Positions 4,230 to 40,016 of a DNA stretch of 40,016 nt are shown here, piece by piece. Made by a program: the position numbers and the translations under genes. Where the stretch lies: the NCBI GenBank assembly GCA_029261405.1, contig JAJDBK010000073.1:1-40016 (forward strand). Reading direction: 5' to 3'. The number at the start of each line of letters is the position of its first letter. The first letter of the stretch is position 1. The stretch is from Nitrospinaceae bacterium (GTDB taxonomy: Bacteria > Nitrospinota_A > UBA7883 > JAJDBK01). Below the pieces are notes generated by a model. The model saw nothing but the letters and a program-made list of their open reading frames with translations. It had not been told where the DNA came from and did not search any database.

Positions 4230-6038
4230 TTATGGTGCGGCATTCAGCTCGTTGGTCCTGGGGTCATAAATCACAGTATGAACCCTGCCTGTTAAAAAGT
4301 GATCCATGGACAGGGTAACAGTTTTTTCAGATAGCGCAGTGGAAACCTCGATTGTGGTCTCTTTTTGACCAGGCTCGATATCAAAAGCCTTGTGGAAAAC
4401 AGAACCGCCGAGGGGAGTGTCGGGAGCGATTTTTTCATTCAACAACAACGTCCCGCCCAGTTTTACTGTTATTGCTGTTTCCGCAAAAACTTCTCCTGTA
4501 ACCACAAGCTGTGATCGGTTCTTATCGATCAGCGCGACCTTGTAACTGTCGCTTGCCCACTGAAACAAAAGAATCAGAACAAAAGTCACTAGAGCGGCAG
4601 AAACTGTTTTTACGGGCCAGGCGGTTTCGCTCGACACATATTCGCGATCACCCGGTTCGTTTGAGAACTCCTTCCTGACTGAGGCGATCTTTTGCTCAAT
4701 TTCATCGGTGGTCCCACCGCCATCTGCAATCAGTTTCAAAGGCCCGGAGCGATACTTATCTCTTAACCACGGTTTACGAAGATGAAACATGCGCATTCGG
4801 GTAAACATTGAGCCGAGCCTGCTCTTGCAAGCGCTCTCTTTACAGGAGAGGATTATTACGGCTTTGGCGCCACGTTTGTAATCGAGCGCAACCTGGTTTG
4901 CAGGTAGTTGACCTGCGCAGATAAGCGGAACAACCAGAGTCGATTTGTCGCCCGGAAACTTTTGCGAAGGGTACGATTCCTTGCACGCATAGACGATTAC
5001 AGGATCAGTGGCCCTTGCCAGAAAGGCGCTTGTCTCTTCATTGATTGCGGTTATCCCCCGGTCAGGCGCCGACAAAGCTCCGAATCCGCACGACCCGACA
5101 CAGACAGGACAACCGGCGCATAGATCTTCATCAAGCTCCACGAGCCAGGGGTGATGGTTTTCCAGAGGCGCTGGAGTCATCGACAATGCGCCATACGGGC
5201 AGTCGGCTTCACAAAGGGCGCATCCCACACATTTTTCAAGGTTCAGCTCAACAGGTTTTACCGCAAACCTCTCACCAAGGGATTTTATAAAATAAATCGC
5301 TATCGCAATGCCAATCAACAATACCAACAATGTGAAGGCCGGACCCGCCACAGTTACGAATAGCAGAGGTGTCATGAACTGCCAGTAGAAGGGGAGTTTA
5401 CCGGTAAGGATCGAAAAATCGGCTATTGGCGCCAAGTTAAGCGGGAAGAAAATCGCCGTCAGGAACAGGCCGATGGTGATTCCAGCGCTTGTTCCTTTGG
5501 AAGGCCAGAGCCTCGGCATGTTGATTCTGTGAAAATGGAGTAGCAGAGCTGTCCCTGCCACAAATACAGGTACTATATGCAAAGCCAGCAGAACAACGGT
5601 AGATCCGACCGGAACAGCGTCATTGACTGCAAACGCATTACGCGCCGTCTCACCCGGAATGATATCAAGAAAAACTTGCAGGATCGACCGGGCGACCATA
5701 TCCATCGGCAGGATAAGGCCGGTTATTCCCTGTGCGGAAAAAAAGAGCGCCAGCCCTACTGCGCTAACCCAGGTTAGCCACATCCCCTTTGCTCTGGCGC
5801 GTTTGGCGACCAGGACATATACAAGGTGAGCCACGACAGCGCAGACGGTCAGACTGGCGGCGAAATGGTGAATGGATCGAAGTAAATAATAGAGGGGGTT
5901 ATCGTCCGGGGCGTTTATTATGTAGCGGTAATTATCGGGAAAAACAGGAATATAAAACGCAAAAAGGATAATACCTGAAACTGTCAGGGTTAAAACGAGA
6001 ATGAAGAGCAACGCTCCGGCTTGTGTAAACCTGTTCAC
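4230..6038 (-). CDS. cytochrome b6-like / 2[4Fe-4S] ferredoxin / MvhD-like fusion protein
   Basis: From a GTG at 6038 the protein has 602 residues. Residues 10-260 form a cytochrome b6-type membrane domain. Two His pairs spaced 13-14 residues apart (about 57/58 with 71, and 154 with 168) fit two heme b groups. Residues 270-320 hold two ferredoxin clusters (CVGCALCEADCP and CAGCPVCVGSC). Residues 345-430 resemble the delta subunit of methyl-viologen-reducing hydrogenase (MvhD), with ICAGQLP and ILSCKESACKSRLG. A further TM segment (about 475-495) precedes an exported C-terminal domain. The likely role is passing electrons between a soluble donor and the quinone pool; partners are not visible. 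The GTG overlaps the kinase stop (GTGA), indicating coupled translation. The longer open frame upstream lies inside the kinase gene and is not real coding. Confidence 0.8.
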   Translation of the reverse strand: MNRFTQAGALLFILVLTLTVSGIILFAFYIPVFPDNYRYIINAPDDNPLYYLLRSIHHFAASLTVCAVVAHLVYVLVAKRARAKGMWLTWVSAVGLALFFSAQGITGLILPMDMVARSILQVFLDIIPGETARNAFAVNDAVPVGSTVVLLALHIVPVFVAGTALLLHFHRINMPRLWPSKGTSAGITIGLFLTAIFFPLNLAPIADFSILTGKLPFYWQFMTPLLFVTVAGPAFTLLVLLIGIAIAIYFIKSLGERFAVKPVELNLEKCVGCALCEADCPYGALSMTPAPLENHHPWLVELDEDLCAGCPVCVGSCGFGALSAPDRGITAINEETSAFLARATDPVIVYACKESYPSQKFPGDKSTLVVPLICAGQLPANQVALDYKRGAKAVIILSCKESACKSRLGSMFTRMRMFHLRKPWLRDKYRSGPLKLIADGGGTTDEIEQKIASVRKEFSNEPGDREYVSSETAWPVKTVSAALVTFVLILLFQWASDSYKVALIDKNRSQLVVTGEVFAETAITVKLGGTLLLNEKIAPDTPLGGSVFHKAFDIEPGQKETTIEVSTALSEKTVTLSMDHFLTGRVHTVIYDPRTNELNAAP

Positions 6039-7669
6039 TCCTCCGTGGCCGCCCGCTCCCCAAAATCGATAGCGCCCCAGACAGCCAGCGTTATAAGAGG
6101 CAAGTGAAGATAATCGGGCTGATCCATGGAAAAAACGGAATCGGCGATGTTGTTGTATACGACCAGGGAAGTTGCGACAATGGCTACCAGCGGATAGAGC
6201 ATATTCCGCAAAAAACCTTTCCATACACGAAAAACAGAATGCGTAAATCCGGCTACCAGCGCTACAGGGATGCCGACTGCCAGATAGAGGATCGTGAAAT
6301 AGAGGTTCCACATATCCTGTTCAACTGCGTGGGCCTGAAAGGAGCCGCTGATGGCAAAGACTATAAACCCCAAAGCAAAACCGATAAATGCGCAGACTCC
6401 GGCGGTTTTGTATCCGTACCTGAAATAAGCGGGAACACCGAGAGCCAGGACTATCGAGACGATGGTGGAGACAAGCGCGTATGTTTCATCGGAGCCAAAT
6501 TCGCCGAACGCGTCACTTTCGAGTTGAATCTTCGCGTAGGCCGCTATCGCTCCGGTTATCAGAGCGATAACGGACATTACAAAGGGGTCGTGGCTGATAT
6601 CTTGTGTGCCATCGATATTTATGGCGCCTGAAGGTTGTTTCAAGTTTGATTGGGCGTAATCGCGCTGATCGGCGTATCTTTCCCTTTCGAGATCCTGTTT
6701 TTCGCGGGCGAGACGGCGTTTATCGTACTCCATTTTCGACTTCATCCGCTTCAACTGGTCCGCTTCGTCCAGACCGAGATAGCGGGAGAAAGCCGCCCCA
6801 AGTTCTTTTGCGCTCTGGTACCTGGCGTTAGGCTTTTTCTCGAGACACTGGAAGATAATTTTCATCAGTTCGCGGCTAACGAAAGTGAGTGTCGCAGGTT
6901 TTGTCTGAAAATGGTGGTTGATGATATCTTTTGCGGTATTCCCACCGAAGGGATGGTTTCCTGTCATCAACTCGTAGAGGGTCAGACCCAGCGCGTAGAT
7001 ATCGACCCGCGCATCCGGTCTGGCGCCTTCGAACACTTCCGGCGCAATATACGCCAATGTTCCGGCGATGGAATCGTGGTCGGCGTCTTTCTCCACAAGG
7101 GCTTTTGCTATGCCAAGGTCCATCAGCCTTACTGACTGGGACCCGCAAACCATTATGTTGGACGGTTTGATATCGCGGTGGATGATATTTTTCTGGTGAG
7201 CGTACTCAAGGGCCTGGCAAACCTGCAAACCGATTCTGGCGACGTAATCGGGTGAGAGGCGTCCGTTCTCTGTCTTCTCAGCCAGCCCGTCGAGGGTATT
7301 GCCATCCACATACTCCATGAGCAGGTAGACGTTCTTGCCATCGTCTTCGAAGTTGATCAGGCGCATGATGTTTGGGTGGGTCAGCATCATCGCCACTTGC
7401 GCCTCCTGCTTGAGCCGCTCCACTGAATCCCGGTTCTGGCTCATGCTCTTTTTCATCAGTTTGATGGCTATAGGGGTGTTCAGTTGTCGGTCGAAACCTT
7501 TGAAAACCAAACCCATTCCACCTTCGCCTATCTTCTCGACAACCTCATATCGATCACCGAGAACGGAGCCTGAGCCGACCTCTTCGCCGGATGACGAACC
7601 TGTGTCGGTAGGTTCGCCCAAACCTGCTTGAATGGTTTGAGCCAGTCTGGCGGTTTTCTTTAAATCCAT
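6035..7669 (-). CDS. membrane-anchored Hanks-type Ser/Thr protein kinase
   Basis: The 544-residue protein has a complete PknB-type kinase domain at about residues 40-300: glycine loop IGEGGMGLVFKG, catalytic Lys in IAIKLMKK, HRDIKPSNIMV catalytic loop, DLG in place of DFG (LMDLGIAKA), and the APEVFEG motif. A basic, charged linker (about 305-345, KRMKSKMEYDKRRLAREKQD) is followed by about five hydrophobic segments (370-540) with no clear extracytoplasmic sensor domain. The kinase should act in the cytoplasm while tethered to the membrane. The stop overlaps the GTG start of the cytochrome b fusion protein, so the electron-transfer protein is a natural candidate partner or target; that is inference. 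DLG for DFG is common in bacterial kinases and does not imply inactivity. Confidence 0.9.
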   Translation of the reverse strand: MDLKKTARLAQTIQAGLGEPTDTGSSSGEEVGSGSVLGDRYEVVEKIGEGGMGLVFKGFDRQLNTPIAIKLMKKSMSQNRDSVERLKQEAQVAMMLTHPNIMRLINFEDDGKNVYLLMEYVDGNTLDGLAEKTENGRLSPDYVARIGLQVCQALEYAHQKNIIHRDIKPSNIMVCGSQSVRLMDLGIAKALVEKDADHDSIAGTLAYIAPEVFEGARPDARVDIYALGLTLYELMTGNHPFGGNTAKDIINHHFQTKPATLTFVSRELMKIIFQCLEKKPNARYQSAKELGAAFSRYLGLDEADQLKRMKSKMEYDKRRLAREKQDLERERYADQRDYAQSNLKQPSGAINIDGTQDISHDPFVMSVIALITGAIAAYAKIQLESDAFGEFGSDETYALVSTIVSIVLALGVPAYFRYGYKTAGVCAFIGFALGFIVFAISGSFQAHAVEQDMWNLYFTILYLAVGIPVALVAGFTHSVFRVWKGFLRNMLYPLVAIVATSLVVYNNIADSVFSMDQPDYLHLPLITLAVWGAIDFGERAATEE

Positions 7670-7732: not shown

Positions 7733-7777
7733 CCTAACCCCGATTATTCTGTTGCCTTCTGAATAATCGGGGTTAGG
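7733..7777. terminator. perfect 17-bp hairpin between mrp and kinase genes
   Basis: The arms CCTAACCCCGATTATTC (7733-7749) and its exact reverse complement (7761-7777) enclose an 11-base loop. On the minus strand it sits 20 bases after the mrp stop and is followed by TCGTTTTC, a weak U-tract. It most likely ends the nfu-mrp transcript, isolating the downstream kinase gene. No kinase promoter is obvious between the hairpin and 7669. Confidence 0.7.
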
Positions 7778-26118: not shown

Positions 26119-26207
26119 TCTGGTGAGCAGGGTTCCTGATCCCGTTGCTCTCAATCCAAGTCAATCCTGTCGTTGTCAGCGAACCGCGCCCAATCTCCAA
26201 GGGTCAT

Positions 26208-26511
26208 CGAAGCCCGGGCCACAGGCCCCGGCGAACGAACGTAAAAAGCCTATCGGTTCCCAGCGTCAGCGTAGCTGGCTGTGCGCCACGCACTATTCGC
26301 TGTGGTCGCGCCACCGAAGCCCGGGCCACAGGCCCCGGCGAACGAACGTAAAAAGCCTATCGGTTCCCAGCGTCAGCGTAGCTGGCTGTGCGCCACGCAC
26401 TATTCGCTGTGGCCGCGCCACCGAAGCCCGGGCCACAGGCCCCGGCGAACGAACGTAAAAAGCCTATCGGTTCCCAACGTCAGCGTAGCTGGCTGTGCGC
26501 CACGCACTGCC
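26208..26511. repeat. 107-bp tandem repeat, about 2.8 copies
   Basis: Units start at 26208, 26315 and 26422 (spacing exactly 107) with the sequence CGAAGCCCGGGCCACAGGCC and are nearly identical; the last is cut after about 90 bases. Each unit holds several inverted-repeat stretches (CCGGGCC/GGCCCCGG, CCAGC/GCTGG, CCAC/GTGG). The array extends into the 3' end of the chemoreceptor gene. An 18-base piece (TCGCTGTGGTCGCGCCAC) recurs at 31645-31662 after clpX. Several plus-strand frames stay open across the array, but no translation signals suggest a gene. Confidence 0.85.
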
Positions 26512-27921
26512 ACCGTCCACCATTTTCAGTAGTTGGTTTACGAGGTCGTCGAGGGCGTCTACTTGCATTGACAGGGCTTCTGCGGATGTGGCGGCGGCGT
26601 TAGCGGCGTTGGTTGTGTCATCGCTCACCTTGTTTAGCTGGGACATGTTTTCGTTGACATCGCGAACCGTCATGGTCTGTTCTCCGGATGCGGCGACGAC
26701 CATGTCGATCCGGCGATGAACCTCCTTGATGGCCTTGTTCACACGCTCCAACGATTCGCCCGTCTCCCGCACAATGACTCCTCCGTTGCTGGAGGCGTCC
26801 ATCGCTTCGTTAAGGAACCCGGATATATCTCCTGCGGCGGCGGCGCTTCTGGTGGCGAGGTTTCGCACTTCCTCGGCGACAACTGAGAACCCTTTCCCAC
26901 TCTCTCCGGCCCGGGCCGCTTCCACGGCGGCGTTCAAGGCAAGCAGGCTGGTCTGGAACGCTATCTCTTCGATCAGCTTGATTATGGTTCCGATCTTGCC
27001 GGAGGACTGGTTGATCGAATCCATAGCCGATACGGTTCGCCCCATATCGGCGCTTCCTTCTCCAACAAGTGACTCCACATCTTTCATCAGGGCGCCGACC
27101 TTTGTGGAATCATCGCACGATTTTTCTATGGTGGATGTCATGCTACGCATCGAGTCGTTGGTGGTGGAGACCGAATCGATTAACTGGTTTGCCGACATCG
27201 CCATGGAGGCGCTCGATTCGCTGATCTGTGCCGCCGCCCTGGCGACTTCCGCTGATCCTTCGGCCAAGGTGTTAGCCACTTCCCTTAAATGGGTAGAAAC
27301 TTTTTTGGCGATAAGGAAATAGGAGATCAGGAGAAGTCCAATTCCTTCCAGCAGAAAAAATATCGCAAGGGTTCGGTTGTTATCGTCGGCGGTTTTTTCA
27401 ACCTTCGTCATATCAAGCGAAAGGGTCAACGCTCCAATGGCGTCCCCCTCTTTTCCTTCGTGGCAGTCGAAACAGTTAACACCTCTCCAATCCTTTTCCA
27501 GGAGGAACGGCTCCGTGGCGGTAAAAGTTCCCTTTTCACTGTCGTATGTATATTCTGGTTTCGCAGTGGTCAAAACTCTTTTGGCGACTTCGGTATCCGG
27601 CGCCTCGTCGGGAAAACCTTCGCCATAGGCTTCGTTAATGGACTGACCACGGCTGATCTTTATTTCGTTGACCCCCTCCATCTGTATGATCATTTTCAGG
27701 AGTGTTCCTCTTTTGTCCATGGAGTCGGCGACCATCAGATTATTCAGGGCGCTAAGAGTCATGTCTGTGATTTTTTTTGCTGTGGCTTCGGCGTTATTAA
27801 TGGCCATGTCGTTCTGGCGCGATCCAACCCAAAAGATGTTCAGGACGGATGCGCTGGTGAAAGTTAATCCCAGAACCAGCATTATTTTTACGGCCAAGGA
27901 TTGGCGTTGAAAGAGTTCCAT
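26464..27921 (-). CDS. methyl-accepting chemotaxis protein with periplasmic c-type heme sensor
   Basis: From the ATG at 27921 the protein has 485 residues. TM1 (about 9-30) is followed by a periplasmic domain of about 160 residues holding a single CxxCH heme-attachment motif ([19 protein letters not shown]). TM2 (about 185-205) leads to a HAMP-like segment and a signalling domain with the hairpin tip [20 protein letters not shown] and [16 protein letters not shown]. Such heme-containing receptors sense redox state or gases in deltaproteobacteria. The last 15 or so residues, after [10 protein letters not shown], are encoded by the 107-bp repeat array, so the native C-terminus has been replaced. 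No CheR/CheB pentapeptide is seen. A TTG at 27942 is an alternative start. Confidence 0.92.
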
Positions 27922-28208
27922 ATATACCCCGATTTCAGACAATAACAGGCTTGAGACGGTTTATTATTTCGATGCCGATTATACCATCATGTAACTGTAA
28001 CTTTATCCTGACCGGATGGATAATATTACCTCTGTTGCTGTTCAGAAACGCTGAAAAAGCCGATCCCTTTTCTTTTTCAACCCCCTGAAAGGGCAACCCA
28101 TGATACCATGGCAAGGTTACAAGCCGCGTGAATAATCGCCGTGACACCGTCCTTTCGATTTGGTAGAAGTTGCCTGTCGTTGTGGTCGATCCACTTGGCG
28201 CGGGCGTT

Positions 28209-38093: not shown

Positions 38094-38445
38094 CTTTGCC
38101 ATAGGCAAGTCTGATATTAGCGGCGAAGATTGGGGAGATATCTTTGCAAAATCCATACAAGGCGACCATCTATCCAGCCCTGCAGGTTTAGCTGATGTTG
38201 TCGTTGAGGGAAAGGCATGGTCAGTTAAAAGCGTTAAGCGGGACAGACCGCATAAATGCTCCGAGATACGTGTAATATCAGGCAGGAATTCACCTGACTA
38301 CTCCTATGGTATCGGAAATCCACATGACGACATACAGAAAACAGGCGAAGCGGTTCTTCGTATATGGAATGAACGTATAAATATAGCTCTTGATAAATTT
38401 GATTCATTAAGAACTTCATTTTCAATCTTGGCGATGAGGTTTTGA
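37981..38445 (+). pseudogene. restriction endonuclease gene truncated by an IS5 fragment
   Basis: The frame gives 154 residues, of which the last 10 (TSFSILAMRF) come from the IS5 fragment starting about 38414. The native part includes ISRWFVYNFAIGKSDISGED, LADVVVEGKAWSVKSVK and RVISGRNSPDYSYGI. The Asp then Lys pattern around GLADVVVEGKAWSVK could be a PD-(D/E)xK-like nuclease core, which together with the adjacent methylase suggests a type II restriction enzyme. The family was not recognised. The C-terminal part is lost, so it is probably inactive. Confidence 0.6.
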
Positions 38446-38636
38446 TCGAACGTTGGGAGGAAAATCCCTACTGGCAATATTTTTGTGGGGAGACGACTTT
38501 CACACACAAGCCTCCCATCAACCCAAGCCTGATGAAAAAATGGCGTGATCGTGTCAAGAGTTACGGTGTGGAAAAACTTCTCGAAGAGACTATCCATGCC
38601 GGGTTGAAACTCAATGTGATTCAGAAGAGTAGTTTT
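38414..38636 (+). mobile_element. IS5-family transposase N-terminal fragment
   Basis: Bases 38421-38620 match 2761-2960 at 196 of 200 positions without gaps. They encode FNLGDEVLIERWEENPYWQY and the following DUF772 region, ending after LNVIQKSS. No inverted repeats, start region or catalytic part are present. The left junction cuts the restriction gene; the right junction lies 15 bases before tRNA-Phe. Confidence 0.8.
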
Positions 38637-39418: not shown

Positions 39419-39875
39419 TCACTCCAGGTTCACGGCTTTTGTGGTGAAATCAAAACCGTTCATATACCAGATTCCGTAGCCGCCCGTATTTACATTTTTC
39501 CACATGATGTCACTGGTGCAGTCGCTATTAAAAAAACCTGTCTCCGCTATACGCCAGGACATACCTGGCACATTTGCGATCCCTGATCTTTAAAAGGTCA
39601 CCGTCAAAATCGTTATTCAGGTTGGTCCCACACGCGCCCGGTGGGCAGGTGTATATTGACCATACGCCGCCCAGACGTTGTAGACAGCGCCGTCATATTG
39701 GCTCCATACCACGATGGCGTTACCATTGGAATCCATGGCAACCGTGGAGAGCCTGCGTCACCAGATTTATCACTGATAATTACCGGCGTACCCCAGCTAA
39801 ACCCCGCATGGGCCGGAGCGATAAAAGAAGAAGTTACAATAAGAAGTGAAAAGAGGAAAATGGATATTTTCCTTA
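39419..39875 (-). pseudogene. degenerate exported FG-GAP/VCBS-repeat protein
   Basis: Minus-strand fragments in different frames read as one broken secreted protein. First comes a signal peptide without start codon (RKISIFLFSLLIVTSSFIAP, cleavage after AHA), then FSWGTPVIISDKSGDAGSP. A frame change gives VAMDSNGNAIVVWSQYDGAV, typical of a secreted beta-propeller-like repeat. Another frame gives SDIMWKNVNTGGYGIWYMNG, the FG-GAP-like repeat, ending at TGA 39419. Several frameshifts and internal deletions separate them. The start codon was replaced at the junction with the repeat at 39878. Confidence 0.6.
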
Positions 39876-39877
39876 AA

Positions 39878-40016
39878 TAGTCGCCCCTGAAAAAGCAGAA
39901 ATAGCCCTATAAACGTTGGTTATTCTCAACTTGAGCAGTGTATAATATTGCCATGTAATCACCAATACCTCTCAAAACCTGGAGATTATTCATTGAAATC
40001 CAAACCTGAATCTGAC
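39878..40016 (-). pseudogene. second, broken copy of the unknown coupled gene pair
   Basis: Matches 2436-2572 at about 124 of 137 positions without gaps. On the minus strand it repeats the ATGA overlap (upstream frame ending RFRFGFQ, downstream frame MNNLQVLRGIGDYMAILYTA), but the downstream frame meets a TAG after 28 codons (ENNQRL, stop) and is cut at 39878 where the exported-protein pseudogene begins. The sequence continues past the window end. Confidence 0.7.

Follow-up and report, generated by a model that had tools for sequence, protein, structure and literature searches.

Each part of the locus described here resembles a known system. Cytochrome b6 and the cytochrome b of bc1 complexes are built on helices A-F with two heme ligand pairs, while HdrA and QmoB carry a dicluster ferredoxin domain followed by FlpD. 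Ammonia oxidizers possess the norSY-senC-orf1 cluster, whose gene order equals that of a cluster type discussed below (PMC4940428). In chloroplasts, the membrane-associated Ser/Thr kinases STT7/STN7 are coupled to the cytochrome b6f complex. There b6f activates STT7, and PetD, a subunit of b6f, is a substrate of the kinase, so both directions occur in one system (PMC13287000). A survey of Nitrospinota leaves open unknown ferredoxin-reducing complexes in the non-Nitrospinia classes (PMC10839748). In the open literature searched, no paper was found that mentions both a cytochrome b/MvhD-type fusion and a kinase, which is weak evidence.

The window (the whole stretch of DNA analysed, 40,016 nt) is one contig of a 3.27 Mb genome, G000. 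It is placed in Nitrospinota, in the same order as nNGHbin12, a Nitrospinota bacterium assigned to class UBA7883 (PMC10839748), and hence in that class. G000 and G006 share this order. Two further genomes, G001 and G006, belong to family f2 and the window's genome to family f1, and G004, G007, G008 and G009 belong to the sister family f5. On the minus strand, which carries all features of the locus given below, the window encodes a Hanks-type Ser/Thr kinase of 544 aa (6035..7669; ORF, Pfam, motifs, hydropathy) followed by a 602-aa cytochrome b/2[4Fe-4S]/FlpD fusion with a GTG start (4230..6038; ORF, Pfam, ligands). The kinase stop (TGA, 6037-6035) and the redox start (GTG, 6038-6036) overlap as GTGA at 6035..6038, exactly as the first-pass annotation had read them. 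GTG is the likely start codon since homology of the G006 protein begins there. Translational coupling was proposed from this overlap; in the window GGAGG lies just 1 nt ahead of GTG, and initiation of the redox gene would therefore need coupling. However, the two genes stand 50 nt apart in G001 and 79 nt apart in G006. The adjacency is conserved and the overlap is confined to the window.

The pair is flanked in the window by DUF72 and, next upstream, an mrp/NUBPL gene (Pfam). Between the latter and the kinase a terminator-like hairpin of 17 pairs (7733..7777; -27.8 kcal/mol, z -5.5) separates the pair from mrp/NUBPL. One operon of mrp, kinase and fusion was considered and is unlikely, given this strong hairpin and the lack of mrp upstream of the pair in G001 and G006. 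A comparison with MvhADG-HdrABC found no HdrA, HdrBC or hydrogenase gene adjoining the fusion.

The redox protein was said at first pass to unite a bis-heme b6-type domain, two [4Fe-4S] clusters and an MvhD-like domain in one chain, and Pfam hits and a full set of ligands bear this out. Cytochrome_B matches residues 4-171 (E 5.6e-9), Fer4_7 residues 269-321 (E 1.1e-7) and FlpD (PF02662) residues 360-422 (E 3e-5, above the cut-off). The b6-type domain with helices A-F spans residues 1-256 (5271..6038). Its heme-b ligands H57/H71 and H154/H168 have b6-type spacing and are invariant across 28 relatives; hmmsearch against cytochrome b6 gives E 1.2e-15, the closest solved chains by sequence are cytochrome b6, and the best Foldseek matches of the structure model (modest, pLDDT 67) are bc1 and b6f cytochrome b. 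The dicluster ferredoxin domain (residues 264-321, 5076..5249) holds eight cysteines in two CxxCxxCxxxC sets, C270/273/276/280 and C307/310/313/317. Among solved chains it is closest to polyferredoxins, formylmethanofuran dehydrogenase subunit F and HdrA. The FlpD/MvhD-like domain (residues 347-422, 4773..5000) follows, with C352, C374, C399 and C404 retained in nearly all relatives. We infer from positive-inside loops that the Fe-S part is cytosolic. By hydropathy and the model, a seventh membrane helix is formed by residues about 474-499 (4542..4619). The remaining beta-rich tail (residues 500-602, 4233..4541), which the first-pass annotation took to be exported, is probably located outside the cytoplasm, as predicted from the helix and the model.

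In comparison with cytochrome b6 and bc1 cytochrome b, the window protein shares the helices and both heme ligand pairs, but it lacks the DWFY/PEWY motif and has Fe-S domains fused to its C-terminal side. No Rieske gene was found among the flanking genes tested. The order of dicluster ferredoxin and FlpD is that of HdrA/QmoB and of a QmoB-like protein in the same genome, but the window protein has no flavin domain and carries its cytochrome b in cis. This QmoB-like gene, the closest other ferredoxin-FlpD module, lies beside a QmoC-like gene on another contig (L006:221-3408, G000:C78). Rieske matches in G000 are located on contigs C17 and C76, and the one on C17 stands beside a cytochrome b match. 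Therefore the window fusion is not the only quinone-linked complex of this genome.

The window kinase is a Hanks-type Ser/Thr kinase by its motifs and by PF00069 (E 5.6e-59; residues 41-286, 6812..7549), and the catalytic residues are present: K70, D166 of HRD, N171, D184 (DLG for DFG) and APE at 209-211. Its kinase domain is most similar to PknB/Stk1-type bacterial kinases (NF033483, E 4.6e-87, below the cut-off of that model). Unlike these, it has no PASTA repeats and instead possesses its own coiled coil and membrane domain (residues about 302-542, 6044..6766; hydropathy and alignment) with 5-6 predicted membrane helices. This domain was found in 9/385 genomes, all of them in the window's order. 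A structure model of the kinase reached pLDDT 40 from a two-row alignment and was not used.

Outside the window, fusions of the same type are found in G001 and G006. They are 31-32% identical to the window protein and together with it form a clade with 100/100 support. In all three genomes a full-length kinase gene is located directly upstream. The pair is not a chance arrangement because it recurs in two more genomes at this level of divergence. Its surroundings are different in each case: an ArsP_1 permease lies downstream in G001 and probable flagellar hook genes lie upstream in G006, and protein comparison of the three loci found no homologs among the flanking proteins. The pairing is thus genuine, but its range is narrow. 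No window-like kinase was found in the 33 non-Nitrospinota fusion loci or in 12 further loci, several of them short contigs.

The kinase also has a life apart from the fusion. Full-length orthologs without a window-type fusion are found in these four f5 genomes, where a CcmH-like gene follows instead (Pfam match in G004, G007 and G009; product similarity in G008). The kinase is thus specific to this lineage, is partnered by two or more different genes, and has another or broader role. These f5 loci are L128:4980-7667, L130:4804-7405, L131:4050-6287 and L132:5293-7948. In three of them a second small gene follows the CcmH-like gene (in L128 it encodes a zinc-ribbon protein), and TsaD is divergent at L128 and L130. 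In G000 the CcmH genes sit on contigs other than the window's. Conservation of the gene pair, named at first pass as one point to check, extends over two families with non-homologous flanks and stops at f5, where the kinases precede CcmH.

The three-domain fusion itself is much more widespread. Ligand-matching relatives occur in Chloroflexota, Pseudomonadota, most Nitrospinota and also Melainabacteria, where FlpD is encoded by its own gene. As a rule they sit in clusters of the heme-copper oxidase or NO-reductase type that have no kinase. The fusion is a recurrent module of such clusters and the domain combination is already known. The idea that the fusion is an unprecedented architecture was rejected on account of these relatives and of a paralog in G000 itself (L039:7819-9480). 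Fusion homologues without a kinase were seen beforehand as the sign of incidental adjacency. They are regular in the wider family, the G000 paralog included, while the window-type clade is paired throughout. The refuting observation named at first pass is thus made for the wider family, and the first-pass interpretation is supported in part.

The cluster of the paralog (L039:435-10036, G000:C3) holds genes for a nirS-like cytochrome cd1, COX2, a COX1-like protein and SCO1, then the fusion itself and, as a gene of its own, the tail. The COX1-like proteins of this cluster type read GHSSQQ, compared with GHPLVY in the Anaerolineae version. They therefore lack the tyrosine that oxygen reductases have in the active site, and an NO reductase is likely. 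Judged from these residues, the cluster is a probable alternative NO-reductase cluster, one that surveys could readily take for a cytochrome c oxidase. Its order COX2-COX1-SCO1-fusion-tail is the one shared with norSY-senC-orf1, a likeness of gene order in which orf1 may correspond to the fusion. Such fusions have the three domains, domain order, ligands and a recognisable tail in common with the window protein: hhalign of the window tail against the separate tail protein gives E 3.8e-5 at 71% probability. In contrast to the paralog, the window gene has no COX2, COX1 or SCO1 upstream. It belongs to a separate clade, its tail is fused, its Qo-like motif is eroded and its partner is a kinase. 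Other kinases do occur near NO-reductase-type clusters (G001 L038:908-2248, G008 L134:11393-12697), but they are different kinases on the strand opposite the fusion and some kilobases away, and were treated as unrelated. In Anaerolineae (L043:5494-10223), COX2 and COX1 (GHPLVY) are accompanied by an 815-residue cytochrome b/Fd/FlpD/tail chain with a cytochrome c domain added C-terminally. Its domains make it look like a quinol-to-oxidase unit in a single chain, equipped with an Fe-S wire on the cytosolic side. A plasmid search returned one near-full-length copy, from a Defluviimonas SCO1 cluster, annotated as 'cytochrome b N-terminal domain-containing protein'. The wider family deserves biochemical study, since it could either supply low-potential electrons or take them up.

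Alignment of the helix E-F loop (residues 208-228, 5355..5417) sets the kinase-linked clade apart. The 25 relatives outside it mostly read DWF(Y/F); the Asp is N in two and D in the rest, with later residues variable in Chloroflexota. The kinase-linked fusions read DWL (G001, G006) and YWQF (window), yet 16/16 heme and Fe-S ligand positions are retained. The Qo-like quinol motif is eroded only in this clade, and because of this erosion the window-clade fusion probably no longer performs normal quinol oxidation.

The reading that we prefer, at a probability of roughly 0.5, is that the two genes encode a respiratory unit specific to this lineage, a redox relay and a kinase functionally coupled to it. 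The fusion would descend from the wider family at work in heme-copper oxidase/NO-reductase-type clusters. Its b6-type diheme cytochrome b, joined to a cytosolic wire in which an FlpD-type Fe-S centre accompanies the two [4Fe-4S] clusters, would link the quinone pool to a partner in the cytosol and pass electrons in one direction or the other. The kinase would use its own helices as a membrane anchor, with the catalytic domain in the cytosol, and would either phosphorylate the redox protein or be switched by its redox state. We infer the electron-transfer role, the cytosolic placement and the functional coupling of the pair; phosphorylation control of electron flow is a plausible hypothesis. 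A redox relay changed from its ancestor and given a dedicated kinase is favoured because the motif is eroded, the ligands are kept and G000 has other quinone-linked complexes. The 3/3 pairing in changed surroundings, the fully supported clade, the hairpin, the 16 ligands and the intact catalytic residues speak for this reading. Against it stand the small number of genomes (three) and their relatedness, the fact that adjacency can persist by descent, the fusion-free f5 kinase orthologs ahead of CcmH and the non-conserved overlap. Persistence by descent would make the two genes incidental neighbours, the kinase serving general cell physiology. The f5 orthologs beside CcmH point this way, as do the seven Ser/Thr kinase matches in G000 and a kinase tree that did not resolve a fusion-linked group including the window. 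The pair has nevertheless been retained in three genomes that share none of its flanking genes, and very divergent fusions are still paired, which makes this rather unlikely.

The same CcmH neighbour, a cytochrome c maturation factor, also fits a kinase that acts on how heme/Fe-S membrane proteins are made, with CcmH as its partner in f5 and the fusion in f1/f2, and not on electron flow. The mrp/NUBPL Fe-S carrier gene next upstream in the window would agree with this, but the hairpin and the mrp-free G001 and G006 loci, whose pairs have no accompanying maturation factor, leave it very unlikely. CcmH is equally another redox membrane protein, and by analogy with b6f-STT7/STN7 the fusion might instead sense the quinone or cytosolic redox state and switch the kinase, whose targets would lie elsewhere. 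The b6-type fold, the membrane-tethered kinase, the retention of cofactor ligands with loss of the Qo-like motif and the dual behaviour of STT7 are consistent with such a sensor. However, STT7 activation needs an active Qo site, whose motif is eroded here, the complete cofactor wire suggests a working enzyme, and the analogy is functional with neither homology nor orthology claimed. Sensing by the fusion is accordingly unlikely, and a full bacterial module in which a kinase senses the quinone redox state, evolved independently of the chloroplast switch but equivalent to it, is slightly less likely still. For the preferred relay-and-kinase reading, the conserved pairing suggests, short of proof, that signalling is wired to respiratory electron flow in one branch of Nitrospinota. 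A functional pairing would give bacteria an example of a Hanks kinase dedicated to a quinone-linked electron carrier.

Elsewhere in the window, two dispersed repeats were found near both contig ends: one of 212 nt (97%; 2752-2963 and 38412-38623), beside tRNA-Phe/Glu/Lys genes, and one of 141 nt (90%; 2432-2572 and 39874-40014). They possibly represent a mobile or assembly-breaking repeat. A 107-nt unit is present in three tandem copies (100, 98 and 84%) at 26205-26525, directly before the ORF at 26464-27942.
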